Source: Lacisediminihabitans profunda (lineage in GTDB: Bacteria; Actinomycetota; Actinomycetes; Actinomycetales; Microbacteriaceae). Taken from it: a stretch of DNA of 64,000 bases. Below are positions 789-27,064 of the stretch, piece after piece. The DNA lies in NCBI RefSeq assembly GCF_008040105.1, contig NZ_VRMG01000007.1, forward strand, positions 186,001 through 250,000, written 5' to 3'. Below the pieces are notes generated by a model. The model saw only the letters and a program-made list of their open reading frames with translations. It was not told the origin of the DNA and searched no databases. Each line of letters opens with the position of its first letter. The stretch's first letter is position 1. The position numbers and the translations under genes are program-made.

Positions 789-1751
789 TCAGAGCCCCAG
801 CACGAGAATGGGGCAGGTCGAGCGAGAGACGCAGATCATCATGCAGCCGCTCTCCTCCTTCTCTCGGTCGGTGAGCACGAAGTCGCGGTGGTCGACGGTG
901 CCCGAGAGGACTGCGGTCTCGCAGCTTCCGCAGATGCCCTCAGCGCAGTCATGCATCACGTCGATCCCGGCTTCAAGCACCGTGTCGAGGATTGACACTC
1001 CCGCGGGAACCACAAGGTCCAGACCGGACTCGGCAAGATGTACTGTGAAGGAGCCGTCGTCCTCGGGCCGATCGTCGGGTGACACCGGGGCCGCGAACAG
1101 CTCGAATCTCAACCGATCAGTGCGGTCCTCGAGTCGCAGCACCCTTGCGCAGTCTTCGGAGAGCCGCGGAGGTCCGCAGACATAGACGAGAGAGTCCGAG
1201 GGATGGGCGTTGAGTGCATCGTCCACGGTGAGTGGCGCTGCGTCGTCCTTCGTGATGACGGTGACGGCGGAGCCAAGGGCTTCGAGTTCCTCGAGGAAAG
1301 CGAGCGACGAGCGCCGTCGGCCGAAATAGTAGAGATGCCACGGAATTCCCGCGCGTTCTGCGGCGTCGAGCATCGGGAGCATCGGGGTGATCCCGATTCC
1401 CCCGGCCACGAACACGTAGCTCGGCGCCGACTCAAGTCGGAAGTGATTGCGCGGGCCCGAGATGGTGAGCCTTGCCCCCGGTCGCACGCCCGTGTGAAGA
1501 TACTCGCTTCCGCCGCGCCCGGCCGGTTCCCGCAAGACGGAAATGCGGTAGCCGTTGCCCGCCGAACCATTGAGGGAGTATTGCCGACTCGTGCCGTCGT
1601 CGAGATGCACGTCGATATGGGCGCCGGGCTCCCAAGAGGGAAGCTCCTGGCCTGCTAGCGGCTCAAGCGCGAGGGACACCACATCGTCGGCTTGCCAGGT
1701 GACAGAGCGCACGAGAACCTCGGCTGACTTCAGGGAGGGAGGTGCAGCCAT
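789..1751 (-). CDS. PDR/VanB-type oxygenase reductase (FMN/NAD plus 2Fe-2S)
   Basis: A 320-residue one-chain reductase of the phthalate dioxygenase reductase/VanB type. The order is an N-terminal flavin domain with RQYSLNGS near residue 56, an NAD domain with VAGGIGITPM near 115 and YVCGPP near 190, and a C-terminal plant-type ferredoxin domain. The ferredoxin ligands are visible as DCAEGICGSC (C-x4-C-x2-C) and a distal Cys in the MMICVSRS segment. Such proteins pass electrons from NADH to a Rieske oxygenase. The only Rieske oxygenase in the window is at 22980-24320, about 21 kb away but apparently under the same operator type, so it is the likely partner (inference). The ATG start is preceded by AAGGGG. 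A divergent control region with paired operators lies directly upstream. Confidence 0.88.
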   Translation of the reverse strand: MAAPPSLKSAEVLVRSVTWQADDVVSLALEPLAGQELPSWEPGAHIDVHLDDGTSRQYSLNGSAGNGYRISVLREPAGRGGSEYLHTGVRPGARLTISGPRNHFRLESAPSYVFVAGGIGITPMLPMLDAAERAGIPWHLYYFGRRRSSLAFLEELEALGSAVTVITKDDAAPLTVDDALNAHPSDSLVYVCGPPRLSEDCARVLRLEDRTDRLRFELFAAPVSPDDRPEDDGSFTVHLAESGLDLVVPAGVSILDTVLEAGIDVMHDCAEGICGSCETAVLSGTVDHRDFVLTDREKEESGCMMICVSRSTCPILVLGL

Positions 1752-1803: not shown

Positions 1804-1836
1804 ATTGGATCCTAGAACATAAATCTAGGATCCACA
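1804..1836. promoter_or_regulatory. Paired GntR-type operator, divergent reductase/cupin promoter
   Basis: Two 12-bp sites, ATTGGATCCTAG (1804-1815) and CTAGGATCCACA (1825-1836), form an inverted repeat whose GGATCCTAG/CTAGGATCC arms match perfectly. Their centres are 21 bp apart, two helical turns, as in the other pairs of this island. The site sits between the minus-strand reductase and the plus-strand cupin and could control both. Assignment to the local GntR protein is inferred. Confidence 0.7.
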
Positions 1837-12426: not shown

Positions 12427-14391
12427 TCAGCAGTCGCACTTCCCGTCACCGTGGTGCGCGCAGTGCGAAACTGGGACCCCGGCTGGCACGTCGAGAGAGG
12501 GATTGCGGTCGAAGAATCCGTCCGGTTCGAGCCGCAGCCCGATCCTGGCCACCGGCATTATCGGCCACTCCTCCGGTCGCGGGTAGTGGTGAACGCCGAG
12601 CACGGGCCACAGCACGAGCTTCGCCCCATCGAGCGACCTGTTGGCCGCCTGCCACGCGGTCACCCCCTCCGCCTCGAGCGGCGCCTGGTTCGGGAATTCA
12701 CCGGCGATGAATCGCTCGGCGGGGTCGTAGGGCGTCGCCCAGAGGTGCTTGGCCACGAAAGGCGCCTTTCGCTCGACGATGCTTCCCGGCTTCACGAAGA
12801 GGTTTGTCGTGTCGCCGATCGACAGGCGGTACGCCGTGCGGTCTCCGAAACGGTTGTCGGTGGATTCGCTCTCCACTCGCCAATGCAGGGCGCGAGACGG
12901 ATCAGCGCGTCGCCCACCATTCGCCTCGTCGAGGATCGGGGTCTCGACCATCCGACACGCGTTGCCCCAGGGGTTGAGAGAGTCATCGGGCTCTGATTCG
13001 GCGTATACCTCCACGAGACGATTGATCTCACCGTCGATTGCGGTGTCGAGCCGTACCCCGAAGTAGTGCTGATGGATGGGCGCTTGCACGTTGGGGGCGA
13101 CCATCCGCCCATGATGGGCCGTGTGCCCGTCGTCGATGCCGGAGACCGAGAGGATGCCGGTGAGCTTCACCTCGAGTTCGACGGCACCGTCCTGGTGGAG
13201 GGTCCAGTAGAAGCCGTAGTCGTAGTTCGCGACGGTGGCGAAGGCTGAGATCACGAGCTTGCGGGAACGGCGGACCTCCGAGTTTCTGGTGCGTCCGTTG
13301 ACGTGGCGCCAAAGAACGCTGTCATCCTCCTCGTGCAGGCAGATGGCGTTCTTGATCGTGAAGACCTCGCCGTCGCCGTTGAGGGCGTGCGCGTCGAAGT
13401 AGCGGATCTCGCCGAGGCAGTCGCAGCCGAGTTCCAGCGACGAGGTGAGCGGTCCGGCGCCATATTCGCCCCAGTCGAAGAAGTTCTTTCGGTAGGCGGT
13501 CGGGTCGGGGTCGAGATAGGGCACGTACATCTCGTTGATTGACGCGCGGCGAAGAACTGAGCGTGTCTTGCCCGCGTCAGTGTAGGCGATGTCATGGAGT
13601 ACCAAGCCCTCGCGGTGCGTGAACCCGATGCGGAAGGTCCAGTTCTGCCAACTGACCCGGTGGCCGTCGATCTCGAACCCTGGACCGTTCGGCTGGACGA
13701 TGTCGAGAGCGGACACTTCGCGATCCGGCCCCCACGCACCCGAGCCGTAGTTGCCGATCTCGGGAGGGATCGGCGTGACGCCGTGGTCCTCGATCTTCAC
13801 GACCTCGAGGGTCTCGAGGTCGACGATCGGGACGAGCCCGGGGATCGGTCGCGAATAACCGTTGTCTTCCGGATTCTCGACGTACCAGAGGGTCGCCCAA
13901 GATAGACGTCGTTCGGTGAGCCCCTCCGGCTCGAAGCCGGTGATCGATTCGGGATCGACCCAGACCTGGGCGGCATCCGTGATGCCGCGGGCAGCGAGCG
14001 CGGCGAGAACTCCGGCATCGGCTCGCACCGCCCGCCCGACCGCTCGTGCCTCCTCGGACGAGACTCCCGGCCGCTTGGCATCCACGGGAGTCCACGAGTG
14101 CAGCCTCGCCGCGTCGGCCGCCGTCGCCGTCCAGCCTGTGACCTCCCACGCCGCGTGTGCAAGGGGGTTCATCACCACCAGGCGAACCGGTCGTGACGCG
14201 TCGGCCGGCAGATGGCGGGCGACGTCTTCGTCGAGGGCGATCCCCCAGAATCTCGGAGTCACACCAATTCGCCCGTCCGCACGGACGAGCGCGATGACAC
14301 TCTCGATCTCGGCAGGGGTGAGCGGGTCCAGAGCATGCCGTGTTCTGGAGGCAGGTGCATCCAGCCGCTCGATCGGCACGTGACTATTCAT
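12427..14391 (-). CDS. Copper-containing primary amine oxidase
   Basis: A 654-residue copper/topaquinone amine oxidase, about the usual bacterial length (arylethylamine/histamine oxidase type). It converts a primary amine, O2 and water into aldehyde, ammonia and H2O2. The cofactor site is VANYDYGFYW, near residue 390, whose Tyr becomes topaquinone. Copper ligands are the HQH in APIHQHYFGVRLD and a later His in VLGVHHYPRPEEWPIMP. The C-terminus ends in an unusual Cys/His-rich tail (VSHCAHHGDGKCDC). The ATG is preceded by AAGGAGA and overlaps the stop of the gamma-glutamyltransferase gene (ATGA), so it is the last gene of the minus-strand operon beginning with the cyclase. The aldehyde product could feed the island's aldehyde dehydrogenase. 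Confidence 0.93.
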   Translation of the reverse strand: MNSHVPIERLDAPASRTRHALDPLTPAEIESVIALVRADGRIGVTPRFWGIALDEDVARHLPADASRPVRLVVMNPLAHAAWEVTGWTATAADAARLHSWTPVDAKRPGVSSEEARAVGRAVRADAGVLAALAARGITDAAQVWVDPESITGFEPEGLTERRLSWATLWYVENPEDNGYSRPIPGLVPIVDLETLEVVKIEDHGVTPIPPEIGNYGSGAWGPDREVSALDIVQPNGPGFEIDGHRVSWQNWTFRIGFTHREGLVLHDIAYTDAGKTRSVLRRASINEMYVPYLDPDPTAYRKNFFDWGEYGAGPLTSSLELGCDCLGEIRYFDAHALNGDGEVFTIKNAICLHEEDDSVLWRHVNGRTRNSEVRRSRKLVISAFATVANYDYGFYWTLHQDGAVELEVKLTGILSVSGIDDGHTAHHGRMVAPNVQAPIHQHYFGVRLDTAIDGEINRLVEVYAESEPDDSLNPWGNACRMVETPILDEANGGRRADPSRALHWRVESESTDNRFGDRTAYRLSIGDTTNLFVKPGSIVERKAPFVAKHLWATPYDPAERFIAGEFPNQAPLEAEGVTAWQAANRSLDGAKLVLWPVLGVHHYPRPEEWPIMPVARIGLRLEPDGFFDRNPSLDVPAGVPVSHCAHHGDGKCDC

Positions 14392-15977
14392 GATTCTCCT
14401 TGGGGTGTGAACTCGGCGAGTCCGCGGGGGACACGCACGATCGCTACGCTGCCATCCGCGCGGGGATCGCTTGCCGCGTCGAAGTCGAGACTGCCCGGCA
14501 CGCGGCGCACTACCTGCACGTGCCCGGCCTCGTCGATGAACCCGTCGCGGCGGTCGACGGCGATTCCCTGGGCGCGGCCAGCCGCGACTGCGACCTCGCA
14601 CCCCGGTTCGGCGACAACCGTCAGCACGGAGTGGCCGAGATCCTGCGACCCGATCACCCACCGTGGTCGGCCGAGAACTTCGACCGGGTCGCTGTGCCGA
14701 TCCATCAGGGCGCTCGCCACTTGGGCGAGGATCCAGGGCTGGGCGCTGCCTCCCTGGCAGCCGAACGCGACGGTCAGTTCGGGACTGTCTCCGATCAGCG
14801 GACATAGGGTGTGCGGTGGACGTAGACCACCGCCGACGCGGGCCGGATGACGCGGGTCGGTACTGAACGCGGAGCCGCGGTTGTGCAGAACGATTCCGGT
14901 GGCCGGGTCGAGGATCCCCGATCCGAACCACTGGTACACACTCTGAATGAGGCTGACGACGGTGCCGTCTGAGTCCTGCACGGTGATGGCGACCGTGTCC
15001 CCGAGCGCATGCCCCGGGCGCGGAAACGCTCCGGTCGCCTCGCCCAGCGAGTCGCCGAGCAATGCCGTTTCGTCGATAGGGCCACCGCGTGGGTCACCGA
15101 GGTTGCGCTGCCGAGAGTCCGCTGCCGCGACGAAAGCCGCGAGAAGGCGTTGCGTGGCGTCGGAGTCTGCCTCTTCCCCTGACCAGACGGCCTCCGTCAG
15201 CGCGGCGGGCAACACTCCGAAGAGCACGAGCCCCTGAGTTGGCGGTGGCGCCACGAACCACGTCGTGCCCGAGATCTCGGCGCTGACGGCGTCGGTGGTC
15301 TCGGCCCGGTGCGCTGCGAAGTCGGCAGGAGAAAGAGAACCGCCGAGAGATCCGATGCGAGCGGCAATGGCCTCGGCCGGGGCTCCCGTGTACATCGCCG
15401 ACGGGTCGGCAGCGAGGGTGCGCAGCGTCGCGGCGAGGGCGGGCTGCGGCAGCGCCATCCCTTCCGTCAGGGGCTCGCCGTCGCTCGTGAAGATCTCGGC
15501 GAGGCCCGGGTCCGCCAGCACGTTCTCTCGCCGCTCCTCGATCGCCCGGGCGAGGCCGGCAGAAACGACGGTCCCGCCGTCCGCGAGTGTCGCGGCGCGT
15601 TCGAAGGCCGCTGCGAGAGGAAGCACCGCTCCGAGCTCGGCCAGTGCGAGCCAGCCGGCGACGACACCGGGAACGGTCACCGTGTCCGGCCCCTGCCGCG
15701 GCATCCGACTCTCGGTGGCGAGCCGGGCGACATCGATCGCGGCCGGTGCCGAACCGACCGAGACGACGGCCCGGGTGTGACCACCCCGCCGGACCAAGGC
15801 GACGAGGTCACCGCCGAGCGAGCATTGGTGCGGATAGACGACGGTGAGCGCGACGGCGGCGGCGATGGCTGCGTCAATCGCCGTTCCGCCGTCGAGCACG
15901 GCCTGCCGCGCGGAGTCGATCGCCGCACGGTGTGGTGCGGCGATCGCAACCGTCAGCGGGGCGGGCGAGCCGGTCAT
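14388..15977 (-). CDS. Gamma-glutamyltransferase-like Ntn hydrolase
   Basis: A 529-residue protein of the gamma-glutamyltranspeptidase family, made as a proenzyme that cuts itself before a nucleophilic Thr. The N-terminal half has the family pattern VLDGGTAIDAAIAAAVAL and HQCSLGGDL. The cleavage site is probably the Thr in HALGDTVAITVQDSDGTVVS, near residue 327. No signal peptide is visible, so it is probably cytoplasmic, unlike classical GGT. Many such homologues hydrolyse gamma-glutamyl or acyl amides. In this island a gamma-glutamylamide ligase is also encoded, so this protein is a candidate for removing the glutamyl group (inference). Its start overlaps the cyclase stop (ATGA). Confidence 0.87.
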   Translation of the reverse strand: MTGSPAPLTVAIAAPHRAAIDSARQAVLDGGTAIDAAIAAAVALTVVYPHQCSLGGDLVALVRRGGHTRAVVSVGSAPAAIDVARLATESRMPRQGPDTVTVPGVVAGWLALAELGAVLPLAAAFERAATLADGGTVVSAGLARAIEERRENVLADPGLAEIFTSDGEPLTEGMALPQPALAATLRTLAADPSAMYTGAPAEAIAARIGSLGGSLSPADFAAHRAETTDAVSAEISGTTWFVAPPPTQGLVLFGVLPAALTEAVWSGEEADSDATQRLLAAFVAAADSRQRNLGDPRGGPIDETALLGDSLGEATGAFPRPGHALGDTVAITVQDSDGTVVSLIQSVYQWFGSGILDPATGIVLHNRGSAFSTDPRHPARVGGGLRPPHTLCPLIGDSPELTVAFGCQGGSAQPWILAQVASALMDRHSDPVEVLGRPRWVIGSQDLGHSVLTVVAEPGCEVAVAAGRAQGIAVDRRDGFIDEAGHVQVVRRVPGSLDFDAASDPRADGSVAIVRVPRGLAEFTPQGES

Positions 15978-16618
15978 GCGGCCGGGAGGCGGAAGAGCAC
16001 CGTCGGAGCCGGCGCGGCCTCCATACCGGCGAACGGCACAGGGAGGCAGACCATCTGGTAGTCACCCGAGTCGACATCCGCGAGGTTCGCGTTCTCCAGG
16101 ATGACGACGCCTGCCCCGCACAGGATGTGGTGGGTCGGCCACTCGACGACGTGCGCAGGCGCTTCGATTGTCATGTAGTCGTTGCCTGCGAAGAGCACGC
16201 CGCGGTCGACGAGCAATTGCGCGGCATCCGGCCCGAGGCCGACCCACGTCTCCGACTTCACGTTGCGGGTGAGGGCGTCGGTCGAGTTGCGGGTCTTGAA
16301 CAGCACACGCTTGGCGTCTCCGAGGCCGGCGTTCTCCAGGTCTTCGGCGCTGATCTCGGCGACCACTTGGCGGAGGTCCAGCACACGGGCTACTCCCACG
16401 GTCGAGTTGAGATCGATCTTGTCGACACTCGCTCCGCCCTCGATGAAGTGGGAAGGGGCGTCGATGTGGGTTCCGGTGTGGGCGCCGATCAGCCAACGGG
16501 AGACGTCCGAGGCGTCACCATTCGCTCGGGACTCTACGATCTCGTAGGTGGGGCGGCGGCCCCAGTGCAGCATGTCGCCATGAATGGGGATATTGATGTC
16601 GATCTGCTCAGCGGTCAT
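15974..16618 (-). CDS. Cyclase/kynurenine-formamidase-like hydrolase
   Basis: A 214-residue protein of the cyclase family (PF04199-type, relatives of bacterial kynurenine formamidase and isatin hydrolase). The metal site is AHTGTHIDAPSHF, matching HxGTHxDxPxH. The ATG at 16618 is chosen because GGAGGG lies five bases upstream; the frame is open to 16675, but that extension would run through the operator. Family members hydrolyse N-formyl groups or cyclic amides. It is the first gene of the operon that continues with the GGT-like and copper amine oxidase genes. Confidence 0.87.
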   Translation of the reverse strand: MTAEQIDINIPIHGDMLHWGRRPTYEIVESRANGDASDVSRWLIGAHTGTHIDAPSHFIEGGASVDKIDLNSTVGVARVLDLRQVVAEISAEDLENAGLGDAKRVLFKTRNSTDALTRNVKSETWVGLGPDAAQLLVDRGVLFAGNDYMTIEAPAHVVEWPTHHILCGAGVVILENANLADVDSGDYQMVCLPVPFAGMEAAPAPTVLFRLPAA

Positions 16619-16654
16619 GGCGCCCTCCGGGGTCTGGTGTGTCAATCCTAGCAA

Positions 16655-16687
16655 ACTAGATCCAATCATGCGCAAATTGGATCCATT
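16655..16687. promoter_or_regulatory. Paired GntR-type operator upstream of cyclase operon
   Basis: Two sites, ACTAGATCCAAT (16655-16666) and ATTGGATCCATT (16676-16687), have centres 21 bp apart. They fill the 67-bp gap between the FAD-oxidase stop and the cyclase start, just upstream of the cyclase ribosome binding site. This is the probable promoter/operator of the cyclase-GGT-amine oxidase operon (inference). Confidence 0.7.
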
Positions 16688-17807
16688 ATTGTGCGACGAA
16701 TCTGTCGAGCGCGAACATGTCTAGGTCGGGTCGGTCCACGCCTCCGCAAAGATCGGCGATGGCCTCGCCCACGGCCGGTCCGAATTTGAAGCCATGGCCT
16801 GAGCAGGCGGTGGCGACGATGACCCTCGGCTTGTCGGGGAGAGCTCCGACCACGAAACGGCGATCCGGCGTCATCGTATAGAGGCAGGCGGCCGCCTCGC
16901 TTCCCGCAGTGTCGATTCCGGGAACGAGGTCACGCATGAGCCGAGCGAGCTCCGCCGTCTCGGCGATGGTTGGCGGCGGATTCGGCACATTGGGATCCCA
17001 GACCGGCCCGGCATCCACCCCGATCTTCAGCCCGATGGTGCCGATACCATCGATGGCGACCTCGGGGATTCCGAACACAAGGCCCTCCGCGCGGTCTATA
17101 GAAAATGTCCCGAGGCTCGGGCTCTGCGCGACGGCCTGCCCGGGAGTGGCCGTGAGGGTGACGATGCGCCATACCTCCAGGGCCCCGGCGAGCTGCGGCA
17201 CGACGGCCCCCGTCCACGGGCCGGTCGCGAGCACGAGGCGGCCCACTCGGATGGTGCGAGACGTTGTCTCGACGGTCACTCCACCGTCGTCCGCGGACCA
17301 CCTCGTCATCGCCTCGCCGTAGGAGAGGCTGGCCCCGGCGGCTCTCGCCGCCGTGCGGGCAAAGTCGAGGGCTGCGGATGCGGCGACGACGCCGGCCGCC
17401 GGATCGGCGACCGCGAAGTAGCCGTCGGGCGCGCGGAGGCCTGGCATGGCGGTCGCCATCTGCCCTGGTGCAACGGCAACGCAGCCCGGGCCCTGCAGGC
17501 GGCCGGGTTCCGCGGCGGCGTAGAGGCCTCCCGTCACGCTGATGAAGGACCGCCCGGCTCGCTCCGCCCAGCGATCCCAGCCCGCGAAGGCCCGCTCTAC
17601 CAGGGAGTTCCAAGCCTCCGACGGATACGCGCGGCGGGTCATCCGTGTGGCGCCGTGCGAAGACCCGAAAGCGTGCCCGGCGTCGAAACGCTCGATCCCG
17701 ATCACCGAGATTCCGCGACTGGCGAGCTCGAGGGCGGCAGCCGTGCCATGGATCCCGAGGCCGACGATGAGGACGGAGGCATCGTGCGTCAGTTGCGTGG
17801 TCCTCAT
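16686..17807 (-). CDS. MSOX/DAO-family FAD amine oxidase (sarcosine oxidase-like)
   Basis: A 373-residue FAD oxidoreductase related to monomeric sarcosine oxidase, N-methyltryptophan oxidase and PuuB-type oxidases. The FAD-binding motif GLGIHG is at residues 16-21. The C-terminal part has AACLYTMTPDRRF, whose Cys is at the position that binds FAD covalently in monomeric sarcosine oxidase, and CSGHGFKFGPAVGE, the family hallmark. It would oxidise a secondary amine or N-methyl amine to an aldehyde and H2O2. The ATG at 17807 overlaps the upstream aminotransferase stop (ATGA); a longer frame to 17939 lies inside that gene. It is translationally coupled to the aminotransferase and dehydrogenase genes. 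Confidence 0.9.
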   Translation of the reverse strand: MRTTQLTHDASVLIVGLGIHGTAAALELASRGISVIGIERFDAGHAFGSSHGATRMTRRAYPSEAWNSLVERAFAGWDRWAERAGRSFISVTGGLYAAAEPGRLQGPGCVAVAPGQMATAMPGLRAPDGYFAVADPAAGVVAASAALDFARTAARAAGASLSYGEAMTRWSADDGGVTVETTSRTIRVGRLVLATGPWTGAVVPQLAGALEVWRIVTLTATPGQAVAQSPSLGTFSIDRAEGLVFGIPEVAIDGIGTIGLKIGVDAGPVWDPNVPNPPPTIAETAELARLMRDLVPGIDTAGSEAAACLYTMTPDRRFVVGALPDKPRVIVATACSGHGFKFGPAVGEAIADLCGGVDRPDLDMFALDRFVAQ

Positions 17808-19027
17808 GCGCCGCGGACCACGGTCGTCGCCGCAATCTCGCGAACCTCGCTCAGCAACTCGTCGATCTCGTCCTCGCGGTTGTAGACGTGCACGGAAGCG
17901 CGCACGACAGCGGGGATGCTGCGGGCCCCCAGATCCCACTGCCCGTGCGAGGCCGGCACCGAAGTGAGCCGAGTGCCGAGGGAACGCAGTCGAAGCACCG
18001 CGTCCCTGGCATCGATGCCGTCCACCGCAAACGTGACGATTCCGGATGCCGCGGCCGCCGGGTCGGTGACCGTCACCCCGCGGATCTTCGAGAGCCCGTC
18101 GCGCAGCGGCGCAGCAAGGGAATCGATGGTGGCGTTGATGCGGTCAACACCGATCTCGAGGGCCTGGTCGATGGCCGATCCGAGACCGAGGCGCGCTGCC
18201 ACCGAATGCTCCCAGGTCTCGAACCGCACGGCGCCGGGAACCGAGCTCCAGGACTTGTCGGCATCCCAGACCGTTCCGCGCACGTCGAGGATGTGGCGCG
18301 CGAGTCGTGCCGACGCCGAGGATCGAACGTACGCGAATCCGGTGCCACGCGGGCCGCGCAAGAACTTGCGCCCAGTGCCCACGAGCACATCGCAGCCGAT
18401 CGCGTCGACGTCGATCTCGATCTGCCCGACCGACTGGGTGGCGTCGACGAGATAGAGGGCACCGTACTCGCGGGCAAGCACTCCCACGGCAGTCACCGGC
18501 TCCACGAGCCCGGAGGAGGTCGGGACGTGCGCCACAGAGAGCAGACTGGGGGCGCCTGCCGCCCTGCTGAGGGCCGCCTTGAGGAGTTCAAGATCGATGG
18601 AGCCATCCGGCCCGGCGTCGACCACCTGCAGGGTGAGCTGGTGCGACCGTGCGAGCGACATGAGATGGAGCGCGTGGCTCACATACGTCGAGCGGGACAC
18701 GATGATATGGGAGCCCGGTTCGAAAACCCAGGAATCGATGACGGTGCGAAGCGCATTGCTCGCGCTGTCGAACATTCCGATCTCGGAGGCCGAGCCGCCG
18801 ACGAGCCTCGCGACACTCGAATACACGGCCGACGTGCGCTCGACGGCGGCCGTGGCCGCCTCGTAGCCGCCCTCCGACCCCTCGAGGATCAGGTGGCGGA
18901 AGACGGTGTCGAGTGTCTCGGAACTCGGCAATGAACATCCGGCCGCGTTGAAATGCCGGTAGACCGCTGCACCTGGAGTGCGTGCGCGTTCCGTCTCGGG
19001 ATCAACCCGCACGGCGGCGCCAGTCAC
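17804..19027 (-). CDS. Class V aminotransferase / cysteine-desulfurase-like PLP enzyme
   Basis: A 407-residue PLP enzyme of the class V aminotransferase group (EgtE, isopenicillin-N epimerase and SufS-like relatives). The PLP Lys lies in GTGRKFLRGPRGTGF near residue 219, and the Asp/Gln of VDATQSVGQIEID contact the cofactor. There is no active-site Cys loop like that of true desulfurases, so a transaminase, epimerase or C-S lyase role is more likely. The GTG start overlaps the aldehyde dehydrogenase stop (GTGA), so all three genes from 20469 to 16686 form one operon. Its reaction in the pathway is not evident. Confidence 0.86.
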   Translation of the reverse strand: MTGAAVRVDPETERARTPGAAVYRHFNAAGCSLPSSETLDTVFRHLILEGSEGGYEAATAAVERTSAVYSSVARLVGGSASEIGMFDSASNALRTVIDSWVFEPGSHIIVSRSTYVSHALHLMSLARSHQLTLQVVDAGPDGSIDLELLKAALSRAAGAPSLLSVAHVPTSSGLVEPVTAVGVLAREYGALYLVDATQSVGQIEIDVDAIGCDVLVGTGRKFLRGPRGTGFAYVRSSASARLARHILDVRGTVWDADKSWSSVPGAVRFETWEHSVAARLGLGSAIDQALEIGVDRINATIDSLAAPLRDGLSKIRGVTVTDPAAAASGIVTFAVDGIDARDAVLRLRSLGTRLTSVPASHGQWDLGARSIPAVVRASVHVYNREDEIDELLSEVREIAATTVVRGA

Positions 19028-20469
19028 GGAACGACCACGACGTTCTTGAGTTCGGTGAAGACTTCGAGACCCTCGTCGCCGAGGTCGCGCCCGAATCCGG
19101 ACTGCTTTGCTCCGCCGAACGCCAGCGCCCCGTCGAAGACGTTATAGGTGTTTACCCACACCGTGCCCGTCTCGAGAGCCGCCGCGACTCGGTGGGCGCG
19201 GCCGAGGTTACTGGTCCAGACTCCCGCGGCGAGGCCGTACTCTACCGAGTTCGCGAGTTCGATGACCTCCTCCTCGGAGGTGAAGGACTGGATGCCCACC
19301 ACCGGACCGAAGATCTCCTCCTGGGCGATCCGCATTGACTGCTCGACTCCACCGAACACCGTCGGTGCGATGAAGTATCCCGGGCGGTCCACCCGCGCGC
19401 CCCCGGCCAGCACGGTCGCACCTTCCGCGACGCCGATGTCGATGTAGTCGAGAATCCGGCTGTATTGCTCTTCGGAGGCGACGGGGCCGACGGTCACCCC
19501 TCCTTCGTCTCCCGCACCCACCTTGACTCTCGACACGGCCTCGAGGAGCCGAGCGGTGAACTCTTCTCGAACGGTCTCCTGAACGAAGAGCCTGCTTCCG
19601 GCCGTGCACATCTGGCCCGAGTGGCCGAAGGAGGCGCGGATCGCCATGGTGACGGCGGCATCGAGGTCGGCGTCATCGAAGACGATGTTCGCGTTCTTGC
19701 CGCCCAGTTCAAGGGTGAGCTTCTTCAGCGTCGCAGCGGCCGAGATCATGATCTTTCTCCCGACCTCCGTGGATCCGGTGAATGAGACTGCCGCGACGCG
19801 AGGGTGGGCGACGAGCGCGGCACCGGTTCGACCGTCGCCGGTGACGACGTTGATCACCCCCTCCGGTACGCCGGCTTCGAGGGCGAGTGCGGCGAGGCGG
19901 AGGGTGGTCATCGGAGTCTGCTCCGCTGGCTTCATCACCACCGTGCACCCCGCGGCCAGCGCGGCGGCCAGCTTCCACGCGGCCGTCATGAAGGGAAAAT
20001 TCCAGGGCAGAATCAGGGCAGCCACGCCGACCGGTTCGCGGCGGCCGTAGATGACGGTTCCATCACCGGTCGGCTGGGACTGACCGCGCAGCCGCTGCGG
20101 GGCGCCCGAGTAATAGCGAATGCCGTCGATGGCCAGCGCGATGTCGCCGAGGGACCTCTCGATCGGCTTGCCCATGTCCTTCGTCTCGAGCGCGGCGATC
20201 TCCGCCTTGTCATCGTCGATGAGCTGGGCGAGCCTGATCAGGACATCGCGCCGTGCGGCAGGCGAGAGGCCAGACCACCGACGGTCGCGGTGAGCGGCAT
20301 AGGCGGATTCAACGGCGGCGAAAACTTCACTGTCTGTCGCCTGCGGAACCCGCCCGAAGCTTTCGCCGGTGGCCGGGTCGATGACCGTGATTTTCTCCGA
20401 GCCAGCGCCGACTGTCCAATCGGCGCCGATAAGCATCGGGATGACGTCGTGCTCGGTAACCTGTGGCAT
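19024..20469 (-). CDS. NAD(P)-dependent aldehyde dehydrogenase
   Basis: A 481-residue aldehyde dehydrogenase, close to the family norm. The catalytic Cys is in GHSGQMCTAGSR near residue 288, the catalytic Glu in LTLELGGKNANIV, and the cofactor region includes PWNFPFMTAAWK and FTGSTEVGRK. The order resembles betaine-aldehyde and gamma-glutamyl-aminobutyraldehyde dehydrogenases. ATG 20469 is preferred; a GTG at 20520 is in frame but would sit next to the paired operator. It would oxidise aldehydes released by the two amine oxidases of the island. It starts the operon with the aminotransferase and FAD oxidase. Confidence 0.92.
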   Translation of the reverse strand: MPQVTEHDVIPMLIGADWTVGAGSEKITVIDPATGESFGRVPQATDSEVFAAVESAYAAHRDRRWSGLSPAARRDVLIRLAQLIDDDKAEIAALETKDMGKPIERSLGDIALAIDGIRYYSGAPQRLRGQSQPTGDGTVIYGRREPVGVAALILPWNFPFMTAAWKLAAALAAGCTVVMKPAEQTPMTTLRLAALALEAGVPEGVINVVTGDGRTGAALVAHPRVAAVSFTGSTEVGRKIMISAAATLKKLTLELGGKNANIVFDDADLDAAVTMAIRASFGHSGQMCTAGSRLFVQETVREEFTARLLEAVSRVKVGAGDEGGVTVGPVASEEQYSRILDYIDIGVAEGATVLAGGARVDRPGYFIAPTVFGGVEQSMRIAQEEIFGPVVGIQSFTSEEEVIELANSVEYGLAAGVWTSNLGRAHRVAAALETGTVWVNTYNVFDGALAFGGAKQSGFGRDLGDEGLEVFTELKNVVVVP

Positions 20470-20522
20470 TCGCAGATCCGCTTCTCTCGTCCAGTGATCT
20501 TCTGGTTCGAGAATACCCACTT

Positions 20523-20555
20523 TTCGGATCCGATACGACCATTTGTGGATCCAAT
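20523..20555. promoter_or_regulatory. Paired GntR-type operator upstream of aldehyde dehydrogenase operon
   Basis: Two sites, TTCGGATCCGAT (20523-20534) and TGTGGATCCAAT (20544-20555), have centres 21 bp apart in the gap between the regulator stop and the aldehyde dehydrogenase. The first 12-mer is identical to the one at 24336-24347. Confidence 0.7.
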
Positions 20556-20580: not shown

Positions 20581-21297
20581 TCAGCGCTTGTCCAGGAGGA
20601 TGGTCCTCGACCGCCGTTCGTACCAGTGCGCCAGGTGTTCTCCCGCGTTAAGCACGTGTGCACTCATCTCCGCGCGCGCAGTCTTGGCGTCCCCGGCTTC
20701 AAGAGCGTCAATGATTCGCTCGTGCTCCTGATAGTTGTCTTCGCGGTGCCGTGGGTCGTCCATGAGCACGAGCGACGAGACGTTACGGGGAAAGGCCTCG
20801 TTGATCTCGCTGATGGCCCGCGCAAGCCGCGCATTGCCAGAGGTGGCCAGAATCAACTCGTGGAATGCGTCGTTGCCCTCGCCCTCGGCGACCGGCGATT
20901 CCCCCCTCGCAGTCGCGTCGGCCAGCGCGCGGGAGTGTTCCCACATCCTCGCGTTGGCCTCACGCAGACTCGCGATGGTCTCCCGGCTGATCCTTGAGAC
21001 GGCACGCTCGGTCGCGAGCGCCTCGAGTTCGGCGCGAACCTCGTAGGCCTCCCGAACCTCCCACGGGATAGGGACACGCACGATCGCACCGCGATTCGGC
21101 ACGACCTCGATGAGCCCGCCGCTCTGCAGTTGGCGCAGCGCCTCTCGGATGGGGGTACGGCTGATGTTGAACTGGCTCGCGAGTTCCGCCTGCCGCAACT
21201 GTGCGCCGATCGGGATCTCGCCCGACATGATCATGGCCCGGATCCGCGCCGTGATGTCATCAACCAGGGCATTTCCAGAAGTATCAAGGGTGCTCAT
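20581..21297 (-). CDS. GntR-family regulator, FadR/FCD (VanR) type
   Basis: A 238-residue transcription regulator. Residues about 10-75 form the winged helix: AELASQFNISRTPIREALRQL, with the wing VVPNRGAIVRV. The C-terminal FCD domain keeps the usual metal/effector residues: Asp and His in NDAFHELI, His in QEHERIIDAL and His in SAHVLNAGEH. FCD regulators bind small acids or amine-derived ligands, usually leaving the operator when bound. It is the only regulator in the island, and seven nearby promoters carry paired palindromic sites of a form that suits this family, including its own. It is therefore the likely master regulator (inference). Confidence 0.93.
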   Translation of the reverse strand: MSTLDTSGNALVDDITARIRAMIMSGEIPIGAQLRQAELASQFNISRTPIREALRQLQSGGLIEVVPNRGAIVRVPIPWEVREAYEVRAELEALATERAVSRISRETIASLREANARMWEHSRALADATARGESPVAEGEGNDAFHELILATSGNARLARAISEINEAFPRNVSSLVLMDDPRHREDNYQEHERIIDALEAGDAKTARAEMSAHVLNAGEHLAHWYERRSRTILLDKR

Positions 21298-21463: not shown

Positions 21464-22993
21464 TCACAGCATCCCGAAGTACTCCCGTTGCTCCCAGTCC
21501 GAGACGTGCGCGAGGTACCGGGCATACTCGGACCGCTTGATCTTGAGGTACCACTCGATGACCCGGTCGCCGAAGGCCTCACCGAAGACCGGATCGAGCT
21601 CGAGCGCCCCCAGTGCCTCGCCGAGGGTCGAGGGGAGACGTTCGGCGTCGTCCTGGTACGGATTCTCGGTCGGTGGACCCGCCTCGAGTTGGCGATCGAT
21701 CCCGTCGAGGCCGCTGACGATCTGCGACGCGATGTAGAGGTAGGGATTCGCGCCCGGCTCACCGGACCTGTTCTCCAGGCGCGATGCCGGGTCCCCGACC
21801 GCACACACCGCCCGCACCATCGCGCCCTTGTTATCGATGCCCCAGAGCACCCGGTCCGGGGCGAGCGAGTACGGCTGGTACCGCTTGTACCCGTTCACGG
21901 TCGGCGTGGCAAACGACGCGGATGCCGCGGCATGGGCGAGGAGCCCCGCGAGATAATGCATTCCGACGGGCGAGAGCGCGGCGTCGCCGGCGCACGGAAC
22001 GAAGACATTCTCGCCGCTCGACAGTCGTCTCATCGATTGGTGCAGGTGCCAGCCGGTCGACGCCGTCTCGGCCCCGACGGGGCGCGACATGAAGGTGGCG
22101 TGATAGCCGAGTCGGCGGCAGATTTGGCGGATGGCGGTGCGAGCAAAGACCACGGCGTCGGCCACGGCTGAAGCGTCTCCCGCCTCCATCGTGATCTCGA
22201 GCTGATTCGGACCGAACTCCAGCTCGATCGAGCGGAGCGGCAGGTCCATCAGGGTGAGGCCCGAGTACAGCTCCTGAACCAGTTCGTCGAGAGTGTCGAG
22301 CGACTCGTCGTGCAGCAACTGGGAACCGCTCGTTGTGGGATGGACGGCGACAGGGAGGCCGGGCTGCCCCGGTCGACCCACCCGAGAATCCGCGAGCAGG
22401 GAATCCGCAAGCCGGAAGACATGGAATTCGAGTTCGGCTCCGACGGTGAGGGCGAGATCACGCTCCGCGAGCTTCTTCACCTCGCGGCGGAGAATGGACC
22501 TGGTGCAGAACGGCACCTCGGCGCCGTTGGGGAAGCGAACGTCGCAGAGGACCATGCCCGTGCGCCTCGACCACGGAAGCACCCGAAACGTCCCAGGATC
22601 CGGCACCATTACGATGTCGCCGGCGCCCGAGAAACCGTCGACGTTGCTGACCGTGTCGCTCTCGAATACCGCGTACACCGACTTGCCCGCGCTGTCCTTG
22701 AGAAGGAGGGACGACGGTGCCGTCACCCCGGAGCGGAGCGCTGCGGCGACCGATGCCCGAGTGAGAGTCTTGCCACGGATCACGCCGTGCTGGTCGACGA
22801 AGCAGAATCGCACCATCTCGATGCCGACCTCGTCCATCACCCGGCGCATCTGCGCCGCGCTGGCGTACTGGGATTCCGTCCACAGATCGTGCCGGTCGAT
22901 GAACCCGCCGCGTTCAGCCTCCAGCATTGGACGAGCACTGGTCCCGCCGCCGCCTTCGGCAACGGTCCGCTCGTCGGTGTTACGCATCGGCAT
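21464..22993 (-). CDS. Glutamine-synthetase-family gamma-glutamylamide ligase (PuuA/IpuC-like)
   Basis: A 509-residue glutamine-synthetase homologue with the catalytic fold intact: GAELEFHVF, SIELEFGPNQLEITMEAGD, TGWHLHQSM and NGYKRYQPYSLAPDRVLWGIDNKG. It lacks the ammonia-pathway signatures of GlnA and fits the group joining glutamate to an amine with ATP (gamma-glutamylputrescine, isopropylamide, anilide or ethanolamine synthetases). The start (ATG 22993, or 22987) overlaps the end of the Rieske oxygenase gene, so the two are co-translated. That pairing recalls the aniline and isopropylamine routes, where an amine is glutamylated before oxygenation. Substrate unknown. Confidence 0.9.
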   Translation of the reverse strand: MPMRNTDERTVAEGGGGTSARPMLEAERGGFIDRHDLWTESQYASAAQMRRVMDEVGIEMVRFCFVDQHGVIRGKTLTRASVAAALRSGVTAPSSLLLKDSAGKSVYAVFESDTVSNVDGFSGAGDIVMVPDPGTFRVLPWSRRTGMVLCDVRFPNGAEVPFCTRSILRREVKKLAERDLALTVGAELEFHVFRLADSLLADSRVGRPGQPGLPVAVHPTTSGSQLLHDESLDTLDELVQELYSGLTLMDLPLRSIELEFGPNQLEITMEAGDASAVADAVVFARTAIRQICRRLGYHATFMSRPVGAETASTGWHLHQSMRRLSSGENVFVPCAGDAALSPVGMHYLAGLLAHAAASASFATPTVNGYKRYQPYSLAPDRVLWGIDNKGAMVRAVCAVGDPASRLENRSGEPGANPYLYIASQIVSGLDGIDRQLEAGPPTENPYQDDAERLPSTLGEALGALELDPVFGEAFGDRVIEWYLKIKRSEYARYLAHVSDWEQREYFGML

Positions 22994-24320
22994 CGGCTTT
23001 CGCGGGTGCGGAGGCGGCCCAAGGCGACTGCTCCCGGCGTTCGAGTTCCCGCTCGCGCCACCGCTGCTGCCAGCCCTCGGAAGGCGCGATGGTATCGACC
23101 GCGAGGGGACCGGTCAGCTTGCTCGCCTCCTCGCGGTCGATCGGCTGGGACGGAAGCGACGATCCGGTCGCGAAGGCATCGATCGACTTGAGGAGAAGGC
23201 GGCGGTTTGCGGTGACTGCCCGGTCGGAGACACCGAGGCGCTCGACCGTTCGATCCTGGATCGGGCCCATGCTCTCGACGGCCCACTGGTCGTGCACATT
23301 GATGTCCAGCCCCATCCCGGTGTAGGTGAGTTCCTTCTGCTCGGTCGCGTCGAACCCCCAGTTGTTGTCGCGATTGCGCAATGGCCGGTACTCGGGCAGG
23401 CTGACCTCCGAGAGGCGCTGGGCAAGGAGGGTCTCCTTGTCGGTCTTGTCCTGGAAGTCATACAGGATCATGAACCAGTAGTGGTGTTCATCGTCCACGG
23501 GAACGTGCCACTGCACGAATACCTTCGAGTTGCCGAACGGAACGACGAAAGCGTTGGGGAACATCAGGTTCGTGATTCGGACGTGCTTGACCTCGTCGGT
23601 CAGTTGCCTGATTGCGAAAACCCGGAGGCCGTGCTCGGCGCTCTCAACTTCGATGTCTGGCCGGAAGTTCTCGCCCACGAGGATTGACAGCTTCTTGCCG
23701 GTGCCTTCCACCTCTTCGCTGAATTGCTGGCCGTAGACCTCGCGCGGATCCTCCTGGATGAAGCGGTGCAGGAACGAGACATGACTCGGGTCGATACCGC
23801 CCTCGAGGCCCTGCAGCCAGTTGCAGTCCCAGCGCCCCTTGAACGCGAAGGTGTATTCCTCGGGCGCGACGAAGCAGTCGTAGTCGGGAAACGGCGGCGG
23901 ATCCCCGGCGCCGAGGTAGGCGAAGATTATCCCGTTTCGCTCCTCGCAGGCGTAGTTCGAGATCTTTATCTTGCCGAGGAACTTGCTGTGGTCCGGCTCG
24001 GCTGGCTGATCAATGCAGCGCCCGTCGGCGCCGTAGAGCCAACCGTGGTACAGGCACCGGAGGCCACCATCCTCGAGGCGGCCGAAGGAGAGGTCGACAC
24101 CGCGATGCGCGCAGAATCGGCTGATCAAGGCCCAGCCGCCCGTCTCCTCGCGCTTGAAGAGCACGAGGTCTTCGCTCATGATGCGTACTTGCTTGACCGG
24201 ACGTTCCTCCGGCATCTCCGAGACGAGTGCTACCGGTTGCCAGTATGACCGCAGCAATTGGCCGAGAGGGGTACCCGGCCCGCTCTGAGTGAGTTTCTCA
24301 TTATCTTCACGCTTCAGCAC
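22980..24320 (-). CDS. Rieske non-heme iron oxygenase, large subunit (phthalate-dioxygenase type)
   Basis: A 446-residue ring-hydroxylating/dealkylating oxygenase. The GTG at 24320 is chosen because the protein then opens MLKREDNEKLTQSGPGTPLG, the standard opening of this subfamily; upstream the frame runs into the operator. The Rieske ligands are C70-x-H72 and C89-x2-H92, within FCAHRG and CLYHGW. The mononuclear iron His pair is H180 and H185 in DPSHVSFLHRF. This type is an alpha-only oxygenase fed by a PDR-type reductase, most likely the one at 789-1751. It performs hydroxylation, N- or O-dealkylation or ring dihydroxylation. It leads a two-gene operon with the gamma-glutamylamide ligase, so the glutamylated amine may be its substrate (inference). 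Confidence 0.92.
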   Translation of the reverse strand: MLKREDNEKLTQSGPGTPLGQLLRSYWQPVALVSEMPEERPVKQVRIMSEDLVLFKREETGGWALISRFCAHRGVDLSFGRLEDGGLRCLYHGWLYGADGRCIDQPAEPDHSKFLGKIKISNYACEERNGIIFAYLGAGDPPPFPDYDCFVAPEEYTFAFKGRWDCNWLQGLEGGIDPSHVSFLHRFIQEDPREVYGQQFSEEVEGTGKKLSILVGENFRPDIEVESAEHGLRVFAIRQLTDEVKHVRITNLMFPNAFVVPFGNSKVFVQWHVPVDDEHHYWFMILYDFQDKTDKETLLAQRLSEVSLPEYRPLRNRDNNWGFDATEQKELTYTGMGLDINVHDQWAVESMGPIQDRTVERLGVSDRAVTANRRLLLKSIDAFATGSSLPSQPIDREEASKLTGPLAVDTIAPSEGWQQRWRERELERREQSPWAASAPAKADADA

Positions 24321-24335
24321 GCCAGTGTCCCATCG

Positions 24336-24368
24336 TTCGGATCCGATCAAGTGTTTATTGTATCCAAT
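24336..24368. promoter_or_regulatory. Paired GntR-type operator upstream of Rieske oxygenase
   Basis: Sites TTCGGATCCGAT (24336-24347) and ATTGTATCCAAT (24357-24368) have centres 21 bp apart, 16-48 bp upstream of the oxygenase start. The second sits in the longer near-palindrome TTATTGTATCCAATAA. Both 12-mers recur exactly elsewhere, at 20523 and 2359. Confidence 0.72.
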
Positions 24369-24678
24369 AATGGCACCTGCGGGCGACGGACGCCAGCGCA
24401 AACGCGAAACCCGGCATCCCGCCCGGCAACGTCGGCCGCGGGCTCCCACTCACAGTTACAGCTTCCTTCCATCACCCAGCGCAGCCATTCCCAGTGGGTC
24501 GTTCCGGCCTCGTGCCCTGGAAGCCGAGCCACCTTCACCGCGGGGAAGGGCTAGGGCGGAACACTCCGAGTACCCGCCACGCCCCGGCGTAGCCGCCCCC
24601 CAAGCCCTCCGGTGGTCGGCGAGTCGCCTCTGTGAAGGACGGGCTGCGACGGCGAGCGGTGGAGGCGAGGCGCACAAC
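24369..24678. other. Intergenic stretch between divergent catabolic operons
   Basis: About 310 bases between two operator pairs. No convincing gene. A 63-codon minus-strand frame (24347-24538, GTG start) encodes a Trp- and Cys-containing peptide (TTHWEWLRWVMEGSCNCEW), but it has no ribosome binding site and its end overlaps the operator. It may be a remnant or chance. Confidence 0.4.
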
Positions 24679-24711
24679 TATGGATACAATTCCAATATTA
24701 CGGGACACAAA
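24679..24711. promoter_or_regulatory. Paired GntR-type operator upstream of GMC oxidoreductase
   Basis: TATGGATACAAT (24679-24690; the other strand reads ATTGTATCCATA) and the weaker ACGGGACACAAA (24700-24711) share the core GGAYACAA with centres 21 bp apart. They end 34 bp before the GTG start of the oxidoreductase. Confidence 0.58.
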
Positions 24712-24745
24712 ATCCTCATTAGTGAACTCGGGAGGGGACCCGATC

Positions 24746-26170
24746 GTGACGGATGTGGTCGTTGTGGGGTTGGGACCGGCCGGGATCATCGCCGCTGCGG
24801 TGCTCGCAGACGGCGGGCTGTCCGTCACCGCCATCCAGGCCGATGCACGGGACCACCTCCGCGCTCCACTCGTGTCGCCCCCGCCGACGCTCCGATCGAC
24901 TGCCGTCGAGGAGGCGATCGCGCAGGCGACGGCTCAGGCCGGGCTCGACGGCGTGGGCGGCTCGAAACGGCTCGCTGCGCCCCAGGCGTACCGACTTGAC
25001 GCGTGGTCGCTGCGCACCCGCAGCGCTACGCTCTCGCGCTATGGGGCACTTCCCTCCGACGCCGACCTCACCGATTGGCCCATCGAGCTTGAGGAGCTTG
25101 CCCGCTGGTACGACGTGGTCGAGCATGCCACAGCGGTCGGCCCACGCCCCGCGACGGTGTGGACCGAGCGCATGAACCGGGCCGCAGCGACGCTGGGCTG
25201 GAGCCCCTTCCCCGCCCCAGCCGCAGCCCAGACAGACGCCTCGTTCCTGCTCGACGGCCGCGGCGTGCACATCGTTCGGGCAAGCGTCACCGAGATCCTG
25301 CGAGGTTCGACAGGCGAGGTCACTGGCGTGGTCCTCGTTGACGCCGACGGGAGCCAGCGATCCTTGAACTGCGGTGTGGTCGTGGTGGCCGCATCGGTCA
25401 TCCCGACGGTGCGTCTGCTGCTGCTTTCGGGCATCACCGGAGCAGATGTCGTCGGTCGATGGTTCATGTCGCACAACGCCTTCGTCGTCCACGGCGACTT
25501 CGATGGGCAAGACCTGGGGCGTCGGCACGCCGGGCCCGCGACCGCTGTCGCAGTGGACGCGTTCGAGGGCGACCGGTTCGACCACACGGGTGTTGGCTTT
25601 CTCGGCGGGTCGATCCTTCAAGCGGCCATGACCGGGACCTGGCCACCGGAACGCCTCGCCGACGCGGCCGTCGGGCTGGGTGTGGAGGCCACGAGGGGGG
25701 CAGACGCGCTGGATTGGGTCCGCGCCCACCAGGCCTCGATCGGCACGGTGTGGGCGCAACCCGACCAGCTTCCCCGTCGCCAGAACGCTATCGACCTCGA
25801 CCCCACCCACCGCGACGTCACTGGCCGACCGGTTGCGCGTGTGACCTTTTCGCTCGCCCCGGACGATGTGCGCCGGTGGGAATTCCTCGCCGCCCGGATG
25901 ACGGAATGGCTTGACGCCGCAGGTGCGCGCTGTACGTGGATGCCACCGCTGGCGCCCCAGCCGCTGGGAACCCACCTGTACGGTGGCGTGCGAATGGGAA
26001 TTGACCCACGGACCTCGGCCGTGGACTCATATGGTCGCTTCCACGACGTGCCGGGCCTTGTCGTGGTCGGATCGTCGACGTTCCCGACGACGGGCGGCCG
26101 CGGTCCGCTCGAGACGATCGAGGCACTGACCTGGCGTAACGCCGACCACCTTGCCGCCGAACTGAGGTGA
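24746..26170 (+). CDS. GMC-family FAD oxidoreductase
   Basis: A 474-residue flavoprotein. The GTG at 24746 is preceded by GGAGGGG at eight bases and immediately gives the FAD motif VVVVGLGPAG; an in-frame extension to 24632 would run through the operator. The C-terminal GMC segment is complete, with GTHLYGGVRMGIDP and VVVGSSTFPTTGGRGPLETIEA. It fits alcohol or sugar oxidases/dehydrogenases, many of which oxidise a primary alcohol or glycoside hydroxyl. The first half is short for the family and has long variable parts. Its operator pair puts it in the island's regulon; it may oxidise an alcohol intermediate. Confidence 0.85.
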   Translation: MTDVVVVGLGPAGIIAAAVLADGGLSVTAIQADARDHLRAPLVSPPPTLRSTAVEEAIAQATAQAGLDGVGGSKRLAAPQAYRLDAWSLRTRSATLSRYGALPSDADLTDWPIELEELARWYDVVEHATAVGPRPATVWTERMNRAAATLGWSPFPAPAAAQTDASFLLDGRGVHIVRASVTEILRGSTGEVTGVVLVDADGSQRSLNCGVVVVAASVIPTVRLLLLSGITGADVVGRWFMSHNAFVVHGDFDGQDLGRRHAGPATAVAVDAFEGDRFDHTGVGFLGGSILQAAMTGTWPPERLADAAVGLGVEATRGADALDWVRAHQASIGTVWAQPDQLPRRQNAIDLDPTHRDVTGRPVARVTFSLAPDDVRRWEFLAARMTEWLDAAGARCTWMPPLAPQPLGTHLYGGVRMGIDPRTSAVDSYGRFHDVPGLVVVGSSTFPTTGGRGPLETIEALTWRNADHLAAELR

Positions 26171-26275
26171 TCACCGGCCGGGTTCTCGGCACACGCACAC
26201 GGTGACGCTCGTCTCCAGCTGGATGTGCCGAAATATCAATGTCATGTGTTTCATGTTCCGGAAAGGAGGGTTCAA

Positions 26276-27064
26276 CTGTCACGGATGCTGGGCTATGTCG
26301 CCCCACGAGCACATCGCACGTCGGAGGCGATCGGAACGGACACGCTCGCCCAATTCACCGCCCTCGCTCACCTGCACGCGGACGGATGGGGAGTGGCGAC
26401 TCTCGATGCCTCCGGCGATGTGGGCGTCACAGGGGGCCGATCACAGGCGTCGCCCGCCGAACTCGCGCCTCACGTTGACCCGCCGGCTCGCGCGCGAACG
26501 ATCTACCTGCGCTTCGCGAGCAGGGGTTCGCCACCTACTCCGGAAAACACTCAGCCCTTCTTGCGCGATCGACTGGCCTTCCAGCACAACGGGCTCATGG
26601 CCCCTCGCGATCGTGCACTCGAGATGCTCTCCGTCGAAGACCGATTGCACCTGCGCGGGACGACGGACAGCGAGGTGTATTTCGCGGTCCTGAGAAGCGA
26701 GCTGCAAGGACAACCCACCGGCGACCCGGGCCTGAGCGACGTCGCACGTGCCGTGACGCGCCTGCGAGCGCAGTACCCCGCGTCCTGTCTGAATGCGTTG
26801 CTGCTCACGAAGCACGGGCTCATCGTCGTGCATTCGGCGGGAACGGCGTCCGCTCCCCTTGCCGCCTTCGCCGCGCGGGAAGCCGATCCGACCCGACTTC
26901 CGCCAGGGCACGGCAGCGACTACAACATTCTGCGCTACACCTCGACCGAGTCTGGGGCACACGTGGTGTCGACGACCGGTGTCGAACAGGACGGTTGGAC
27001 GGACCTGCCGGCAGACTCGATCAGTCTCATCACCGCAGCGGCTGTGATACACCTCGCGCTGTGA
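26276..27064 (+). CDS. Class II glutamine-amidotransferase-like protein, Ser in place of catalytic Cys
   Basis: A 262-residue Ntn-type protein related to YafJ/EgtC amidotransferases. Conserved blocks are RMLGYVAPR, HLHADGWGVA, IYLRFASRG, NTQPF and LAFQHNGLM. Homologues begin Met-Cys-Arg, and the Cys becomes the N-terminal nucleophile. Here GGAAAGGAGGG stands six bases before CTG TCA CGG ATG, so starting at CTG 26276 gives Met-Ser-Arg-Met, with Ser at the nucleophile position. Starting at ATG 26285 would place the ribosome binding site about 15 bases away and remove the nucleophile altogether. Ser can serve in other Ntn hydrolases. It may hydrolyse a gamma-glutamyl amide made by the nearby ligase (inference). 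No operator pair was seen upstream. Confidence 0.75.
   Translation: MSRMLGYVAPRAHRTSEAIGTDTLAQFTALAHLHADGWGVATLDASGDVGVTGGRSQASPAELAPHVDPPARARTIYLRFASRGSPPTPENTQPFLRDRLAFQHNGLMAPRDRALEMLSVEDRLHLRGTTDSEVYFAVLRSELQGQPTGDPGLSDVARAVTRLRAQYPASCLNALLLTKHGLIVVHSAGTASAPLAAFAAREADPTRLPPGHGSDYNILRYTSTESGAHVVSTTGVEQDGWTDLPADSISLITAAAVIHLAL

Follow-up and report, generated by a model that had tools for sequence, protein, structure and literature searches.

RESULTS

A Ser-type amidotransferase gene at the edge of a probable amine-catabolic cluster

The window, by which we mean the whole 64,000-nucleotide stretch of the Lacisediminihabitans profunda genome that was analyzed, carries between positions 789 and 27064 all gene types of a cluster that probably degrades an amine through gamma-glutamyl intermediates. 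At the right-hand end of this region lies a gene for a class II amidotransferase-like protein with serine at residue 2, referred to below as the Ser gene. The features are as follows:

789..1751, minus strand: ferredoxin-type reductase for the Rieske oxygenase, assigned partly from a relative's annotation
1805..1835, unstranded: double operator between the reductase and transporter genes
12427..14391, minus strand: copper amine oxidase
14388..15977, minus strand: gamma-glutamyltranspeptidase (GGT)-like protein, PF01019, a second Ntn hydrolase
15974..16675, minus strand: cyclase/arylformamidase-like hydrolase, PF04199
16656..16686, unstranded: imperfect double-box operator 5' of the cyclase gene
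16686..17807, minus strand: FAD amine oxidase of the DAO family, sarcosine/N-methyltryptophan oxidase-like (relative, L118)
17804..19027, minus strand: class V PLP enzyme, SufS/EgtE-like; divergent neighbor of the Ser gene in other genomes
19024..20520, minus strand: aldehyde dehydrogenase
20524..20554, unstranded: double operator 5' of the aldehyde dehydrogenase gene
20581..21297, minus strand: GntR/FCD regulator
21464..22993, minus strand: glutamine-synthetase (GS)-like, predicted gamma-glutamyl-amine ligase; best solved relative 8wwu
22980..24320, minus strand: Rieske oxygenase with LigXa_C/Rieske domains, 76-92% identical to counterparts in other clusters
24337..24367, unstranded: double operator, two TTGGATCCAA-like boxes 21 bp apart, between the Rieske and GMC genes
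24632..26170, plus strand: GMC-type oxidoreductase, 5' of the Ser gene across a 105-bp gap, 65-69% identity to counterparts in other clusters
26260..26270, plus strand: Shine-Dalgarno site GGAAAGGAGGG, with a 7-nt AAGGAGG match 6 nt 5' of the CTG
26276..26284, plus strand: CTG TCA CGG, start codon, putative nucleophile Ser2, and invariant Arg3
26276..27064, plus strand: Ser2 class II amidotransferase-like protein, 262 amino acids, CTG start, TGA stop

The first-pass annotation had described the Ser gene without mention of a cluster, and the conserved amine-catabolic neighborhood was found here. One LigXa-type Rieske protein is accompanied by one Fer2 reductase. The GS-like protein scored 441 bits against PDB 8wwu, which we take to be the 1-naphthylamine glutamylating enzyme NpaA1, versus at most 173 bits against ordinary glutamine synthetases, and on this basis it is a predicted gamma-glutamyl organic amide synthetase. 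Two further details concern other members of the cluster: ATG 24680 may be the true start of the GMC gene, and the GGT-like protein, inspected by eye, has GDTVAITVQD where typical gamma-glutamyltranspeptidases carry a TTH motif and might therefore be an amidohydrolase with a different specificity.

Translation very probably begins at CTG 26276

The earlier reading of a strong Shine-Dalgarno site six bases before CTG TCA CGG ATG agrees with the window sequence, in which GGAAAGGAGGG occupies 26260-26270 and the four codons occupy 26276-26287. Chance alone would place AGGAGG at a spacing of 5-9 before about 0.2% of positions. From CTG 26276 the frame is open for 262 codons to the TGA at 27062-27064, and its translation contains the motif blocks as they had been quoted (RMLGYVAP, HADGWGVA, RFASRG, NTQPF, and FQHNG). 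The codon aligned with the window CTG is the start, either ATG or GTG, in all 17 close relatives, and in seven close relatives from named genomes the start lies exactly at the CTG position; CTG 26276 is therefore very probably the start codon, as had been proposed, with serine as residue 2. Among the 18 distinct members of the clade described below, 12 genes start with ATG, five with GTG, and only the window gene with CTG, which bears out the view that this start is unusual. The CTG start was seen only in the window genome, whereas Ser2 is found throughout the clade. The AAGGAGG of the window gene is among the longest Shine-Dalgarno matches in the clade and is paired with its weakest start codon; in the other genes with a 7-nt match, the match is separated from the start by only 2 nt.

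Two other start codons were considered and rejected. GTG 26225, upstream and in frame, would add 17 residues before the common start of all relatives. ATG 26285, which the first-pass annotation had named as the start that would overturn its reading, lies 15 nt from the Shine-Dalgarno site, and its use would remove the invariant Ser2 and Arg3. Because these alternatives clash with alignment or spacing, initiation at CTG is strongly indicated, short of proof.

Serine at residue 2 defines a clade

Profile searches covered 398 genomes of the family Microbacteriaceae, 396 from the order, 247 from the same genus, and 297 at class level, after which N-termini were extracted. Residue 2 was Ser in all 18 distinct members of one Microbacteriaceae group and Cys in 78/78 other distinct relatives, with no third residue. 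Profile scores separated the two cleanly (253-420 bits for Ser proteins and at most 222 bits for Cys proteins), and all Ser proteins fell in one clade of the tree with support of 100/99, which was still 99 after removal of the discriminating columns. The simplest reading of this distribution would be one Cys-to-Ser event, retained since. TCA, TCC, TCG, and TCT are all used at position 2 across the clade; a sequencing error concealing a Cys codon, which the first-pass annotation had given as a ground for withdrawing its claim, is thus ruled out for the clade. The alignment of homologues that it had called for found Ser fixed in all 18 members. Its description of the substitution as unusual holds as a statement of rarity against the uniform Cys2 of the other relatives, but not as a peculiarity of one gene.

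Several observations pertain to individual family members. In Microbacterium sp. BR1 (L002, 6001-7161), the Ser protein has an open C-terminal extension of about 120 residues. L093 and L102, two Cys relatives, carry long extensions at the C-terminus and run to over 560 residues in all. Cys-type relatives L058, at 1498, and L017, on the minus strand (genomes G491 and G391), read ATC TGC AGG and ATC TGT CGT at the aligned start and may use ATC as a start codon; another, L061 (G580), has an apparent frameshift near the N-terminus, around 1474. A plasmid origin was rejected, the only plasmid match being one distant Streptomyces protein at 35% identity. In the open literature, no description was found of a Ser class II amidotransferase or of the cluster.

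The fold and binding pocket of the family are retained

The window protein scored 34.7 bits against Pfam PF13230 (GATase_4; cut-off, 23), and this, together with an EgtC-like predicted fold, upholds the earlier assignment to class II amidotransferases of EgtC/YafJ type. It is not an EgtC orthologue, since its score against NCBIfam EgtC TIGR03442 (39.4 bits) is far under the equivalog cut-off of 218.65. Class II glutamine amidotransferases are characterized by an N-terminal Cys, and the window protein and its 17 relatives have Ser2 instead, so they belong to the fold family and not among its Cys-dependent glutaminases. The AlphaFold model (pLDDT 95.8) found EgtC as its best solved match (Z 25.1), followed by GlmS (22.4) and PurF (22.1). 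Residue 2 of the model is the first to align and falls at the nucleophile position, matching residue 2 of EgtC and residue 1 of GlmS.

Across the Ser and Cys sets, R3, D36-G-W-G, R79, P94-F95, N105-G106, D131, and N173 are invariant. Four of these, R79, N105, G106, and D131, align with GlmS R73, N98, G99, and D123, which we take to be the known glutamine-binding and oxyanion residues. Four further columns switched together with residue 2 and are fixed within each group: 77 from H to Y, 93 from H to Q, 217 from Y/F to N, and 233 from S to T. For close pairs, dN/dS was 0.2-0.5, which suggests purifying selection with only moderate constraint. Simple gene decay is not favored given 18 intact frames and dN/dS below 1, and the overall pattern is more that of a retuned enzyme than of a decayed one.

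The Ser gene belongs to a conserved, operator-marked gene set

In 12 of the 17 other Ser loci, the Ser gene is divergent from, and lies within about 100-160 bp of, a conserved operon encoding the class V PLP enzyme, FAD oxidase, GGT-like protein, and copper amine oxidase, then GntR, reductase, and Rieske proteins. None of seven Cys2 control contexts carries these genes. In extended regions the GS-like ligase and aldehyde dehydrogenase come next, with cyclase, amidohydrolase, and GMC genes farther out. Of the five Ser loci without the local operon, four come from genomes that carry the cluster at another site; P. yzui is the exception. The ligase co-occurs with the Ser gene in 17/18 Ser genomes, P. 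yzui having the Ser gene without it. Within the best-sampled genus, both genes occur together in 13 genomes, the Ser gene alone in none, the ligase alone in two, and neither in 232 (p 7e-20, a value that ignores shared descent and joint transfer). Four genomes carry the ligase without the Ser gene (G901 and G321, 98-99% complete, and G995 and G176, 81-86% complete); the Ser gene is thus not essential to the cluster and is probably accessory. The cluster of G321 (C17:310500-333400; L156 and L157) has the Rieske protein and the ligase nearest to those of the window, at 92% and 79% identity, and no Ser amidotransferase was found near it or genome-wide at E 1e-10.

The double operators, TTGGATCCAA-like boxes paired 21 bp apart, further mark this gene set. 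A genome-wide pattern search of the 4.0-Mb L. profunda genome found the double box three times, all inside the cluster, and a control pattern zero times; in other Ser genomes, most double-box sites likewise lie within the cluster. Eleven of the 17 other loci have a double operator before the Ser gene; P. yzui is one of them, and the site there, directly before the gene, is the only one in that genome. These paired boxes are GGATCC-centered palindromes that mark amine-cluster promoters in the window and in L073, L120-L122, L068, L113-L117, and L071, and they are nearly cluster-specific in each genome. Directly before the window Ser gene there is no GGATCC double operator, nor did the gap to the GMC gene yield a promoter; the Ser gene is probably controlled together with the upstream GMC gene from the operator at 24337-24367. 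The cluster's GntR/FCD protein is a likely candidate ligand of the double operators. Taken together, membership of the Ser gene in the amine-catabolic regulon is well supported.

DISCUSSION

Proposed mechanism and alternatives

Aniline and 1-naphthylamine degradation systems combine a GS-like ligase and a Rieske oxygenase with a GAT-like hydrolase that is dispensable. For 1-naphthylamine, the enzyme NpaA1 and its structure have been described together with the system as a whole, in which the GAT-like hydrolase reverses gamma-glutamylation and so holds a toxic intermediate low (PMC11335346). We propose that the Ser protein may play a similar role in a GntR-controlled amine-degradation pathway. 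The CTG start would be read as Met in a stand-alone hydrolase of the class II amidotransferase (Ntn) fold, and methionine aminopeptidase would take off this Met to leave Ser with a free alpha-amino group. Arg79 and Asp131 would hold a gamma-glutamyl amide, Asn105/Gly106 would form the oxyanion hole, and the alpha-amine would activate the Ser hydroxyl to attack the gamma-carbonyl of that amide. Hydrolysis of the resulting glutamyl-Ser ester would yield glutamate and the free amine. In this way the protein might trim or reset gamma-glutamylated amines made by the neighboring ligase, before or after Rieske oxidation. Its absence from G901, G321, G995, and G176 agrees with the role of a dispensable helper. 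The presence of a copper amine oxidase and an aldehyde dehydrogenase points to the eventual release of a primary amine and its oxidation.

Judged from sequence, the balance leans toward Ser catalysis on a gamma-glutamyl amide, and we give somewhat better than even chances to the Ser protein being an active N-terminal-Ser hydrolase of such amides in amine catabolism. Several points weigh against this role: laboratory variants of such enzymes usually lose function when the nucleophile is exchanged from Cys to Ser, the GGT-like Ntn hydrolase of the cluster could do the same job, four ligase-bearing genomes lack the Ser gene while P. yzui has it without the ligase, constraint on the sequence is only moderate, and the window Ser gene has no double operator directly before it. 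The first-pass annotation had left open whether the protein is an active Ser variant or a binding protein. We favor the active option because the invariants of the Cys family are kept, other fixed columns have changed along with residue 2, purifying selection is apparent, and the gene sits in a gamma-glutamyl-amine regulon. A sensor, carrier, or inhibitor that binds a gamma-glutamyl compound without cleaving it nonetheless seems unlikely rather than implausible: the Cys nucleophile is lost, dN/dS is moderate, the fixed pocket changes H77Y, H93Q, Y/F217N, and S233T could signal a new binding role, and the fold matches include beta-lactam synthetase, an example of a class II domain that has lost glutaminase activity. 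Such a protein would not be expected to keep Ser at residue 2 in 18/18 members, with no drift to Ala, Gly, or Thr, or to retain every oxyanion and glutamate-binding residue; moreover, Ser is usable as an Ntn nucleophile, and every start in the clade leaves it at residue 2.

An active Ser enzyme with other chemistry (an acyltransferase, an esterase, or an amidase acting on a non-gamma-glutamyl substrate) would accommodate the changes at columns 77, 93, 217, and 233 alongside the nucleophile, Ser favors ester-type intermediates, and the cluster's substrate leaves room for it. We consider it quite improbable, in that Arg79 and Asp131 are invariant and correspond to the GlmS residues holding the alpha-carboxylate and alpha-amino groups of glutamine, and a gamma-glutamyl ligase is encoded in the cluster. 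That the start is misread, with ATG 26285 or GTG 26225 as the real one and an inactive or decayed copy without N-terminal Ser in this genome, gains some credence from the great rarity of CTG start codons in bacteria and the single CTG in the clade; it is very hard to reconcile with the Shine-Dalgarno spacing, the exact alignment with 17 relatives, an invariant Ser2-Arg3 pair in frame, and a gene free of other lesions. The full proposal, namely that a fixed natural Cys-to-Ser switch produced an active N-terminal-Ser gamma-glutamyl amidase of an undescribed Microbacteriaceae amine pathway, initiated here at CTG, is put forward tentatively, with slightly less than even odds of holding in every part.

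Textbooks present class II amidotransferases as Cys enzymes. A natural exchange of Cys for Ser, with a kept pocket and co-changed columns, offers a direct test of the way in which a nucleophile switch becomes workable, and S2C together with the four companion columns provides defined variants for this question. The Ser gene further leads to a conserved catabolic cluster that is marked by operators and includes a predicted gamma-glutamyl-amine ligase, and the window start is a good candidate for natural CTG initiation.

Comparison with known systems

EgtC (PDB 4zfj/4zfk/4zfl) is the closest solved fold, superimposing over 214 residues at 2.4 A. Like the window protein, it is a stand-alone class II amidohydrolase fold with the R-x-x-x, HNG, and D motifs, and it removes gamma-glutamate; the two differ in that identity is only 20% and the EgtC nucleophile is Cys. 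An ergothioneine role is not evident here, even though the cluster's class V PLP enzyme bears a distant likeness to EgtE; neither EgtB nor EgtD was found among the neighbors annotated by Pfam/NCBIfam. Nearest in sequence, at about 30-40% identity, are the actinobacterial Cys2 class II amidotransferases (PF13230, YafJ-like), which share the invariant residues with the Ser proteins except at the switch columns, having Cys2, His77, His93, Tyr/Phe217, and Ser233 in place of Ser2, Tyr77, Gln93, Asn217, and Thr233, and which lack the catabolic cluster in all seven contexts compared.

Ntn hydrolases of the penicillin/cephalosporin acylase type rely on the alpha-amino group of their N-terminal Ser, as the Ser protein would. 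They belong to other families, and their Ser is bared by precursor autoproteolysis, whereas in the Ser clade loss of the initiator Met would expose it. AtdA2, presumably of class I type, and NpaA2 are the corresponding hydrolases of the aniline and 1-naphthylamine systems. The likeness of these hydrolases to the Ser protein is one of setting: a GS-like ligase and a Rieske oxygenase with reductase, joined by a dispensable hydrolase (PMC11335346), a part that the Ser protein would play here. Aniline-type systems are characterized by a two-component (alpha and beta) Rieske dioxygenase with reductase; in the cluster described here, one LigXa-type Rieske protein and one reductase were identified, and the cluster adds a copper amine oxidase, a GGT-like protein, an FAD oxidase, a class V PLP enzyme, and an aldehyde dehydrogenase.
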